NCBI RefSeq assembly: GCF_015206995.1
Contig: NZ_JADEXR010000003.1
Span: forward strand, 1 to 64,000
Reading direction: 5' to 3'
DNA: 64,000 nucleotides
Source of the DNA: an aff. Roholtiella sp. LEGE 12411
GTDB lineage: Bacteria > Cyanobacteriota > Cyanobacteriia > Cyanobacteriales > Nostocaceae
A model generated the notes under the pieces. It saw only the letters and a program-made list of their open reading frames with translations. It searched no databases and was not told the origin of the DNA. Of the stretch, positions 2,708-4,836 are shown one piece after another (positions within the stretch are counted from its first letter, which is position 1; every line of letters starts with the position of its first letter). The position numbers and the translations under genes were made by a program.

Positions 2708-2914
2708 CTAAAGCATGTGCTCCACGCGACTCAAGCGTTCTGAGTAGCTTTTCATTACCTTTAGGGAAAACACGGGTGTTTCTTGAACAGCAAAGAGAAA
2801 CCCTTGCTCATCTAAGAAGGCAAGTTTGCAGTGTGTCTTGGCAATAGCTGTATAAGTTCTATTTTTGACCCCTACAAGTACCCCAACACCAAAAATTTCG
2901 TTTGTCATATCCAA
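2708..2914 (-). pseudogene. Remnant of a cyclic-nucleotide-binding (CRP-like) domain protein
   Basis: A 68-residue frame resembles the C-terminal half of small cyanobacterial proteins with a cyclic-nucleotide-binding domain: IFGVGVLVG corresponds to the phosphate-binding cassette region ('xFGExALL'), followed by AIAKTHCKLAFLDEQGFLFA and the final helix VMKSYSERLSRV. The first beta strands of the fold are absent, and the sequence upstream shows no matching coding. The cassette also lacks its usual Glu (FGVG instead of FGEG). I read it as a 5'-truncated relic, though a short expressed product cannot be excluded. Confidence 0.55.
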
Positions 2915-3196
2915 GGTTTAGTATGCCTAATAAATCTATTTTTACAGTCCTAATATCCTGAGACAAAGTAAAAAACTTAGCTACTGTAAGTTTCACATTT
3001 AAACGTAGTCTTGTATTAATTTATTCTTCAGCAAATAATTAATAGAAAAACTTCCAATTTCCAGACAGAAATCATTTAATTATGTCTGAAAAAAGCCCTT
3101 CTTCTATATAAAAATCTTACATATCGTCAGAAAATAAGCTTACTAATAAAGTAGAATTTAAGAGTCAAATTGATTAATGATTTAGAGAGTAAGGTA

Positions 3197-3424
3197 ATGG
3201 CTAAAATAGTAATTCCCGACTTTCATCCTAATGATACAGATATATGTGATCTACCTCCAAGAAAAACAGATAATCTGTTAGGAGGTTATATTCACATATA
3301 CACCATTAATGATGGTGGCGTGAATAACATATCAACTACATACGAAGGTGCTTACAACATCCACGATAACAGATTTTCTAGTATAGACTATTCAAGATCT
3401 ATTCGCAATTGGATCTATCTATAG
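3197..3424 (+). CDS. Double-glycine leader peptide-like small protein, copy 1
   Basis: A 75-residue protein, one of three paralogues in tandem. It starts MAKIVIPDFHP and carries a Gly-Gly at residues 29-30 in the context DNLLGGY, like the processing site cut by C39 peptidase/ABC exporters. The part after it is acidic and Asn-rich, with the conserved end YNIHDNRFSSIDYSRSIRNW. An open frame runs upstream to ATG 3170, but the ATG at 3197 aligns with the other copies and has GAGAG upstream. It has one cysteine, so lanthionine-type rings are unlikely. The family is not one I recognise by name. Secreted peptide or RiPP precursor is an inference from the leader shape. Confidence 0.6.
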   Translation: MAKIVIPDFHPNDTDICDLPPRKTDNLLGGYIHIYTINDGGVNNISTTYEGAYNIHDNRFSSIDYSRSIRNWIYL

Positions 3425-3825
3425 TTAATTACTGATACTTAACAGGTTGTATTGCTAAAACACATAGAGAGAGTTAAAGAAAGGCGATAAAGTTGACTGG
3501 ATGATAGTTTTAACGCTTAAATTTTGGTGAAACTAGGCTAGTTTGTGAGGCTAAATTCGCATTAATGTAATAAATTAATTCATGTTAAAAATCCAAATAA
3601 CAACAACCTAGATATAGCTAGATAAACTCACCTAAAAAACATTACGTTGATACAAAGATTAAGTTTGATTTTCGGCTTTCTGTAATCAGAACTTTGTGAG
3701 CGAATTGTCATCAGATATCACTCTCATTTAGAGAAAAAACAGATTATTCTATCAGTTAATTTGTCGGTAATTTTGCTCCACTAAAGTTACCAAACTGTTC
3801 ATAACCTGACCTCAAAAATAAGACC
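3425..3825. other. Spacer between peptide genes 1 and 2
   Basis: About 400 bases of AT-rich DNA. I see no convincing open frame, tRNA or strong hairpin. Being this long between paralogues, it probably holds a separate promoter for copy 2, but I cannot assign -35/-10 boxes with confidence. Confidence 0.4.
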
Positions 3826-4092
3826 ATGGCTAAAATAGTTATTTCTGATTTACATCATCTTGATGCGAAGACATTTTTGCATGACTTGTTTTCAATACAA
3901 ATTGATGCCACATTAGATAATTATCTTCTGCATTTATGGGGTGGCGATCCTGATCTTGAATTAACTAGCATTCAAGATGGTGTAGGTAATACATCATCTA
4001 CATCTAATGGGCCATTCGGCTTTTATAACAACAAGATTCTTACAATAGATTTCTCACGATTAACTCTCAATTTGATCTTCTTGTTACCCTAG
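3826..4092 (+). CDS. Double-glycine leader peptide-like small protein, copy 2
   Basis: An 88-residue paralogue of the genes on either side and the most diverged. It keeps the start MAKIVISDLHHLD and the middle motif KTFLHDL (KTFTHNL in copy 3). The Gly-Gly lies later, at residues 39-40 (HLWGGDPD). The tail GFYNNKILTIDFSRLTLNLI aligns with YNIHDNRFSSIDYSRSIRNW of copy 1. No cysteine is present. The ribosome-binding site is weak (AAGA). A hairpin terminator follows directly. Start and size are supported by alignment to its neighbours; function is unknown. Confidence 0.55.
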   Translation: MAKIVISDLHHLDAKTFLHDLFSIQIDATLDNYLLHLWGGDPDLELTSIQDGVGNTSSTSNGPFGFYNNKILTIDFSRLTLNLIFLLP

Positions 4093-4113
4093 TTCTAAAA
4101 GTTTCATAGTTGA

Positions 4114-4139
4114 AAAGCCTGCATGAGCAGGCTTTGTTT
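4114..4139 (+). terminator. Terminator after peptide gene 2
   Basis: AAAGCCTGC (4114-4122) and GCAGGCTTT (4127-4135) form a perfect 9-bp stem with a 4-base loop, followed by GTTTG. It lies 22 bases after the copy 2 stop, so copies 2 and 3 are probably separate transcripts. Confidence 0.75.
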
Positions 4140-4307
4140 GTATTTAGCTACTTATTATAAAATAATTAATTTTACAGAAAAATATTATTTAATAATGTCT
4201 AAAATATTATGCTTTTAGCCAAAACTTTTGCATTTTGCATGCTTAAATTTTAACTATAAATGTACAATTGAAGAGTCAAAACTACTTAAAATTTATAGGG
4301 TGAGATA

Positions 4308-4544
4308 ATGGCTAATATAATAGTTTTTGATTTAGATGTTATTGATGTAAAAACATTTACACATAATCTGGCTCCGGTGCAAGCAGGAAATATATTGGGA
4401 GGTTATCCTCCTGTTCTTATAACTACTATTAATGACGATGGCATAAATAACATAGACCATACGTATGAAGGGCCATATAATATTCACGACAATAGGTTTT
4501 CCAGCGTAGACTATTCAAGATCTCTTCGCAATTGGATCGGATGA
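4308..4544 (+). CDS. Double-glycine leader peptide-like small protein, copy 3
   Basis: A 78-residue paralogue, closest to copy 1. It starts MANIIVFDLDVIDVKTFTHN and carries Gly-Gly at 31-32 (NILGGYPP). The segment after it is nearly identical to copy 1: TTINDDGINNIDHTYEGPYN, IHDNRFSSVDYSRSLRNWIG. The DNA is also highly similar over that stretch, pointing to a fairly recent duplication. A good ribosome-binding site (GGGTGAG) precedes the ATG. No cysteine. A secreted or processed peptide is the likeliest reading; no exporter or peptidase gene is in the window beside it. Confidence 0.62.
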   Translation: MANIIVFDLDVIDVKTFTHNLAPVQAGNILGGYPPVLITTINDDGINNIDHTYEGPYNIHDNRFSSVDYSRSLRNWIG

Positions 4545-4644
4545 TTAGTTACTGATAATTAATCTGGTTTTGTTGAAAAAACTTATATATAAAGTTTCTG
4601 ATGAAGTAAGATGATATGCATTAAATTTGCATTTTTCTTAATTA

Positions 4645-4695
4645 AGGGGAGCTATGAGTCAAAACAAATAAGCCTCATGACCCCTGAATTTTGTT
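4645..4695 (+). terminator. Terminator-like hairpin after peptide gene 3
   Basis: AGGGG (4645-4649) pairs with CCCCT (4681-4685), with an inner ATGAG/CTCAT pairing, followed by a T-rich tail. The stem is interrupted, so this is a moderate call. It would close the peptide-gene cluster before the minus-strand tRNA. Confidence 0.4.
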
Positions 4696-4763
4696 TAAAC
4701 ACGCAACTTGAATATTAATCAGCTTGGTAGAGTTTATACCTTGCTTGTCTATCTCTTGAAAAA

Positions 4764-4836
4764 CGAGCGCGGAGGGATTTGAACCCCCGACCAACAGAAC
4801 CGGAATCTGTTGCTCTATCCACTGAGCTACGCGCCC
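4764..4836 (-). tRNA. tRNA-Arg (anticodon CCG)
   Basis: The minus strand folds as a 73-nt cloverleaf. Acceptor arm GGGCGCG (4836-4830) pairs with CGCGCTC with one G-U, and the discriminator is G. The D arm is GCTC..GAGC. The anticodon stem ACAGA/TCTGT closes loop TTCCGGT, so the anticodon is CCG (codon CGG, Arg). The T arm GGGGGTTCAAATCCC is standard. No 3' CCA is encoded, as is common in cyanobacteria. There is no variable-arm expansion. Confidence 0.95.

Follow-up and report, generated by a model that had tools for sequence, protein, structure and literature searches.

Tandem double-glycine peptide genes of an apparently undescribed Nostocaceae family, probably exported in trans by a C39-type transporter

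RESULTS AND DISCUSSION

Three small genes arranged in tandem in the cyanobacterium aff. Roholtiella sp. LEGE 12411 probably encode precursors of secreted peptides with double-glycine (C39-type) leaders, which would be exported in trans by a transporter system carried on another contig of the same genome (C68). Judging from sequence, the N-terminal 30–40 residues of each protein, ending in Gly-Gly, would act as a recognition and cleavage tag, and the mature product would be a Cys-free core of 45–48 residues. The initial annotation of this DNA had likewise proposed secreted peptides, and the proposal gains support here from the linkage of family members to C39 exporters in relatives, from the presence of the same leader on other cores, and from a Gly-Gly that is either kept at the putative cleavage site or shifted.

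Three related peptide genes in tandem

The window (the whole 64-kb stretch of DNA that was analysed, contig G000:C180) contains three genuine open reading frames of this type, all on the forward strand. Copy 1 (positions 3197–3424, 75 aa) has a leader in residues 1–30 (3197–3286) that ends in LLGG, followed by a core of residues 31–75. Copy 2 (3826–4092, 88 aa) belongs to a diverged subfamily, with a putative leader extending to Gly40 (3826–3945, ending HLWGG) and a core of residues 41–88, while copy 3 (4308–4544, 78 aa) has a leader in residues 1–32 (4308–4403), ending in ILGG, and a core of residues 33–78. The features by which these genes had been recognised as paralogues were recovered, namely MA(K/N)I(V/I) starts in all three, KTF.H(D/N)L in copies 2 and 3 (KTFLHDL and KTFTHNL), and one Gly-Gly per gene (residues 29–30, 39–40 and 31–32 in copies 1 to 3, respectively). 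Homology among them exceeds chance: copy 1 matches copy 3 with E = 2e-21 (61% identity) and copy 2 with E = 8e-4, and a profile of the family scores all three at 2.7e-25 or better (copy 2, 2.9e-31). The C-terminal block YNIHDNRFSSxDYSRSxRNW, previously ascribed to all three genes, was found in copies 1 and 3, the cores of which end in DYSRS...RNW, but copy 2 has a diverged homologue of it (FGFYNNKILTIDFSRLTLNLIF). At the aligned position of the Gly-Gly, copy 2 also has Asp-Asn, with its own Gly-Gly lying eight residues downstream; homologues of the copy-2 type are present in six other genomes (G001–G004, G019 and G039).

The window cores (45–48 residues) are rich in Asn, Ser, Thr, Ile and Tyr. 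AlphaFold2 models of two family members had mean pLDDT values of 48.6 and 51.7, with helices at residues 11–19 and 23–29 followed by low-confidence strands. A terminator-like hairpin with a T-rich tail, identified by consensus match only, lies on the forward strand about 20 bp 3' of copy 2 (4114–4135). Four such sites were found in the region compared with a mean of 0.6 in shuffled sequence, two of the four being inside copy 3, and a sigma-70 promoter scan of the region scored below shuffled sequence.

No C39 domain was detected in the 64-kb window using a profile built from 12 genus sequences, and the window locus is without any gene of the group II cluster type discussed below. The earlier remark that no exporter is adjacent is correct for the window, but not for those relatives in which C39 exporters adjoin family genes. 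By eye, we take the neighbouring genes to be psbC, a DUF72-type ORF, an M23-type peptidase and trmFO. A tRNA gene (Rfam RF00005) is located on the reverse strand at 4764–4836, directly past the array.

The upstream flank of the array is 91–93% identical in all four genus relatives compared, and the downstream flank was found in two of the four. Between the flanks, DNA identity to the genus relatives is approximately 68–78%, and the array comprises three copies here versus 4, 4, 5 and 4 in the relatives. Given this diverged array, with varying copy numbers beside a conserved upstream flank, the array turns over fast within a largely fixed locus (window positions 2900–4800).

Distribution and novelty of the family

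Members of the family share a leader of the pattern MAKIxIsDL...FlhdL...LGG, followed by a nearly Cys-free core of about 55 residues ending in DNKIxTIDYSRS; of the 166 cores, 21 contain any Cys. A profile built from the window copies gave 6–10 matches per genome in all five genus genomes (a few of them leader-only). With a wider profile, matches were obtained in 77 of 192 Nostocaceae genomes and 32 of 56 genera (E ≤1e-3), with a best E ≤1e-5 in 60 of these 77 genomes, the other 17 being weaker and including some leader-only matches. Named carriers include Cyanocohniella, Amazonocrinis, Anabaena, Dendronalium, Desmonostoc and Nostoc.

In a draw of 386 genomes from across the phylum, for which 14 candidates were scored per genome, 25 genomes matched (E ≤1e-4), all of them labelled Nostocaceae, and in four of these (G017, G043, G065 and G117) the match covers just the first 33–38 model positions. 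This corresponds to 25 of 43 genomes inside the family and none of 343 outside it, a split read from list order, since 18 unmatched Nostocaceae genomes precede the first genome of another family in the list.

Eighty genomic regions were fetched, five chosen for an exporter cluster (L104, L105 and L109–L111) and 75 picked from the listed family matches. After matches with E >1e-4 or ending before model position 60 were dropped, 244 matches were reduced to 167, of which 166 are distinct. These members come from 74 regions of 47 genomes (47 of the 77 matching genomes).

The possibility of a new small-peptide family, raised by the initial annotation, is supported in that these multi-copy Nostocaceae proteins correspond to none of the Pfam, NCBIfam or PHROG models. 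The three window proteins had no Pfam or NCBIfam match above cut-off and two relatives had no NCBIfam match. An endolysin family matched one relative at best at 0.0014, which is not credible, and a Pfam domain at 0.014 was rejected as being below its cut-off. A profile search of the PDB gave no match to the family, tblastn searches of plasmids and phages (one query each) gave none either, and the core string TIDYSRS and two variants had no literature match, a weakly informative result. The proteins resemble NHLP and N11P (Nif11) precursors in having cyanobacterial double-glycine leaders, but match no such curated Pfam or NCBIfam model. Hence, this is apparently an undescribed family within a known kind, the double-glycine leader peptides of cyanobacterial C39 clusters, and some of its members may already be included in the 58 "other" group II precursors that are tallied in the catalogue of such clusters (PMC3140520, as far as its text was covered).

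A modular leader, the double-glycine site and selection

Across the 166 members, position −2 of the aligned site is Gly in 152, and position −1 is Gly in 124 and Ser in 22. Taken as pairs, 121 members have GG and 15 have GS (136 together), and 30 have another pair. Members without GG, GS or GA at the site tend to carry a GG slightly further on: 22 of these 30 have one within the next 14 residues, compared with 20 of the 136 members that keep the site, or 28 of 136 if any G[GAS] is counted (22/30 versus 28/136, Fisher P = 7e-8, with related sequences counted as independent). In eight of the 166 members, the aligned site lacks GG, GS and GA and no GG follows shortly behind it. Window copy 2 is of the shifted kind.

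The leader is also shared by different cores. At E <1e-3, a leader-only profile recovered 29 ORFs that do not belong to the family and have cores unlike the family core, among them an RRRRR type and a hydrophobic type ending near AKSFN. This sample is biased, as 28 of the 29 are from regions fetched for an exporter, a LanK-like gene or linked family genes. A core-only profile found just two further ORFs, both with the family leader. Since the leader occurs on other cores and the core-only matches all carry it, the leader is a module. Also among the 29 is an orphan peptide in the same genome as the window (L108:8790-9020, contig G000:C330), in which the family leader precedes a different, repetitive core (WENFLQPWGIFSGG / GGVLSTPAGILQY).

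Selection on the window copies looks purifying, with dN/dS values of 0.18–0.37 in all nine tested pairs that include a window copy. Over 22 pairs, dN/dS ranged from 0.18 to 0.81, with three pairs above 0.5 and all below 1. With residues 33 onward treated as core, a split that includes part of the putative leader in copy-2 types, pN was lower in the core than in the leader in 11 of the 22 pairs, equal in one and higher in 10. By this comparison, the core is conserved, though on the whole to no greater degree than the leader.

C39 exporters beside family genes in relatives

A search for C39 transporters near homologues, suggested by the initial annotation, was positive. Of the 75 regions picked from family matches, 21 hold a C39 exporter, compared with roughly two expected by our own arithmetic (48 C39 matches in five genus genomes), and family genes lie beside HlyD in 22. 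These 22 HlyD-containing regions derive from 22 genomes and eight genera, with 13 of the 22 genomes belonging to a single genus (g28). In all 22, a family gene is the nearest marked neighbour of HlyD on the flank opposite the exporter. The one region with HlyD and without an exporter (L125) is on a contig that ends there. Fourteen of the 22 linked regions have a visible SurA-type gene, and in each of these the family genes are located between it and HlyD. Other genes in the 22 linked regions encode a helix-turn-helix (HTH) protein (21), LanK-like and HopA1-domain proteins (11), and an M16-like peptidase (2, at 25–26% identity). Within the genus of the window, no family gene was seen adjoining an exporter.

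The C68 cluster and putative export in trans

The genome that carries the window has 11 C39 matches, some of them partial, one of which is the 1,034-aa exporter on contig C68. Its Pfam domains are cNMP_binding, C39, ABC_membrane and ABC_tran, and the surrounding cluster encodes the HTH protein, HlyD, a PpiC/SurA-type rotamase, a HopA1-domain protein, a choline-kinase/APH-like protein, an M16 peptidase and other double-glycine peptides. No family gene lies between HlyD and SurA in C68. Because the genome keeps the cluster on a separate contig, the window copies are orphans.

The C68 exporter is 81–89% identical to ten family-linked exporters, and those on contigs C9, C119 and C166 are 71–78% identical to family-linked exporters; four short exporters of the same genome reach 31–33%. 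In a tree of 26 rows, which included eight of the 11 C39 matches of this genome, the family-linked exporters formed no separate clade, and exporters with no family gene seen beside them fell in the same group. The C68 cNMP-binding/C39/ABC transporter, together with HlyD, is the most likely exporter and leader peptidase for the window peptides and would act in trans, with its paralogues on C9, C119 and C166 as less likely alternatives.

Group II clusters have been described as comprising a long-type C39 exporter with an N-terminal CAP_ED domain, HlyD, a SurA-type rotamase, an M16 peptidase and several double-glycine precursors (Wang, Fewer and Sivonen 2011, PMC3140520). All of these components are present in C68 according to Pfam. 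The linked family regions correspond in part (exporter in 21, HlyD in 22, SurA in 14 and M16-like in 2 of 22), whereas the window genes lie outside any such cluster. Very little core conservation was reported in that study, in contrast to the present core profile, which covers 166 sequences. The inverted repeat described below and the LanK/LanY assignment are features seen here and absent from the portion of the PMC3140520 text covered.

A 200-aa HTH protein (L105:4778-5380), of the type that lies beside the exporter in C68 and in the 21 linked regions that have one, resembles the DNA-binding part of IS630 transposases. This candidate regulator may have arisen by domestication of a transposase.

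Putative function of the peptides

EbfG1–4 of Synechococcus elongatus PCC 7942 are adjacent double-glycine peptides that need PteB for efficient secretion and enable biofilm formation (PMC4997328), and EbfG2 is reported to be amyloid-like (PMC9981879). The likeness to the family, drawn from these descriptions, lies in four adjacent small proteins of similar size with double-glycine leaders and export by a C39 transporter; a difference is that mature EbfG was reported, in the text covered, to be without homologues in other cyanobacteria. On the strength of this analogy, and given that 166 members retain the core motif, we tentatively favour a role within the producing population itself (in its matrix, in adhesion or in signalling), which we consider plausible rather than probable. 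A matrix or communication role seems somewhat more likely than a toxin role, and the comparison of core and leader does not decide between a matrix or signal role and other functions.

A role as bacteriocin or microcin precursors, that is, exported peptides that kill related cyanobacteria, is rather unlikely in our judgement. It would fit the name given to the cluster type, bacteriocin group II (PMC3140520), the diverging array of variable copy number beside its more conserved upstream flank, and the 10 of 22 pairs in which pN is higher in the core. Nonetheless, the core does not evolve faster than the leader overall, its pN being lower or equal in the other 12 pairs, and no pair reaches a dN/dS of 1. 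The alternative of small cytoplasmic proteins with an incidental Gly-Gly is very unlikely: although 30 of 166 members are without GG, GS or GA at the aligned site and the window copies have no nearby exporter, the leader recurs on other core types, exporter linkage extends to eight genera, a GG lies close by in 22 of the 30, and searches gave no credible match to a known family.

The absence of Cys pairs had been taken to make lanthipeptide chemistry unlikely. This dismisses Cys-based rings for the window cores but leaves room for chemistry on Ser and Thr, as LanK/LanY-like genes are present in 11 of the 22 linked regions. CaoK/CaoY-type pairs dehydrate Ser and Thr (PMC9486802), and so the LanK-like kinase of the cluster could phosphorylate Ser and Thr of the core, with elimination by the LanY/HopA1-like lyase, so that a dehydrated, Cys-free product would be exported. 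We consider such modification improbable. The cores are 18% Ser plus Thr, and C68 encodes relatives of both enzymes, a HopA1-domain protein above its Pfam cut-off (9e-62) and a choline-kinase/APH-like protein for which LxmK is the best NCBIfam model (5e-23). The LxmK score of 81.7 is, however, far below the cut-off of 315, the enzymes adjoin other double-glycine peptides in the clusters and are separated from the family genes by SurA, and the most conserved core Ser is replaced by Ala in 23 of 166 members. The same features delimit the comparison with class V lanthipeptides (lexapeptide and cacaoidin; PMC9486802), whose LanK/LanY-type genes have putative relatives in the exporter cluster and which differ from the three window products in that the window cores have no Cys. 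Co-occurrence of a LanK-like marker with the family was discarded as a test, as the marker occurs in 189 of 192 genomes and the family in at most 77. The near-universal presence of this kinase relative may mean that Ser/Thr dehydration is widespread. In C68, the LxmK-like kinase adjoins the HopA1-domain protein (L104:7162-9547), and the double-glycine peptides seen in that cluster are Cys-free.

A long shot is that the window peptides are substrates of HetC, the peptidase exporter of heterocyst differentiation whose substrate is unknown. HetC has the same cNMP-C39-ABC plan and, in the account covered, no nearby double-glycine peptide gene (PMC10986499), and the peptide family was found in one cyanobacterial family only. 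Against this, the linkage is to the exporter of the HlyD/SurA cluster (HetC itself being unassigned among the exporters of this genome), and 115 of 192 Nostocaceae genomes are without a family match at E ≤1e-3.

A 25-bp inverted repeat upstream of the peptide genes

An operator-like 25-bp inverted repeat, AGACAGAAAT-N5-AATTATGTCT, lies at positions 3063–3087, 109 bp 5' of the copy 1 ATG. A degenerate half repeat is present 5' of copy 3 (4176–4200), in which the right arm (AATAATGTCT) is kept and the left is broken, so that it fails the strict pattern. Matches with two mismatches were at chance in the window (three versus 2.8 expected), and only the site with no mismatch was counted. Through this repeat, the orphan copies probably stay in the regulon of the cluster.

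The consensus derived from upstream k-mers is AGACAwAAwt-N5-awTTwTGTCT, and a scan of 1.76 Mb found 48 sites. Regions L104–L183 contain 44 sites, compared with 3, 1 and 1 after shuffling. Of the 48 sites, 26 had a family gene as the closest label downstream, six another double-glycine peptide, two SurA, two another ORF and 12 none, several of the latter preceding double-glycine peptides that were recognised later. None of the 48 was assigned to an exporter or HTH gene. Using arms of 10-5-10 with at least 7 of 10 matches, located at most 400 bp upstream, the repeat was found before 29 of the 98 family genes that lead an array, 5 of the 68 other family genes and 3 of 813 mechanically called ORFs of at least 150 aa (Fisher P = 5e-27). 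The 29 of 98 is partly circular because the repeat was discovered on family upstream regions, and the other double-glycine peptides therefore serve as an independent test; among these, 13 of the 33 that lead an array and 10 of the 94 others have the repeat upstream. Its spacing is also similar, with 23 of the 29 family sites 92–121 bp upstream and the 23 sites of other double-glycine peptides at 113–133 bp. Among first genes linked to an exporter, only 13 of 22 have the repeat. A looser inverted repeat (arms 8/10, gap 8), possibly a remnant, lies between HlyD and SurA of C68 (L104:15483-15510), the place that family genes occupy in other genera.

For group II systems, the products of most catalogued precursors were called completely unknown (PMC3140520), and within the literature covered, our search found no later product. 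The family supplies these systems with a conserved product that can be recognised, along with a candidate exporter and a candidate operator, the last of which is of help in assigning scattered small ORFs to the system. Searches restricted to the surroundings of exporters can miss orphan precursors such as those described here. A broader but doubtful reading is that of a dispersed Nostocaceae regulon with one leader, one 25-bp operator, one cNMP-gated C39 exporter and several unrelated cores, in which the DYSRS family would be population-directed (matrix or signal), possibly Ser/Thr-dehydrated, and its genes would have escaped and multiplied under cluster control. If true, "group II bacteriocin" clusters would be systems of multicellularity or biofilm formation, not weapons.

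Across the genome that carries the window, the strict repeat pattern has seven distinct sites, compared with one forward and one reverse match of a reversed control. They comprise the window site, two located 129–130 bp before C68 double-glycine peptides, one 251 bp before an ORF that by eye is glycosyltransferase-like, and three without a clear gene. In 20 regions fetched around repeat sites of this and other genus genomes, a double-glycine peptide lies within 320 bp in three and a family gene at 329 bp in one, and the remainder have a glycosyltransferase-like gene (three) or nothing recognised (13). Accordingly, no double-glycine peptide was recognised within about 330 bp of four of the seven sites or in 16 of the 20 regions. 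The glycosyltransferase-like gene, assigned by eye, has the repeat 227–284 bp 5' of it in three genus genomes (L262, contig C65 of the window genome; L272, G004:C238; and L274, G002:C67), and such sites may widen the regulon to surface polysaccharide.
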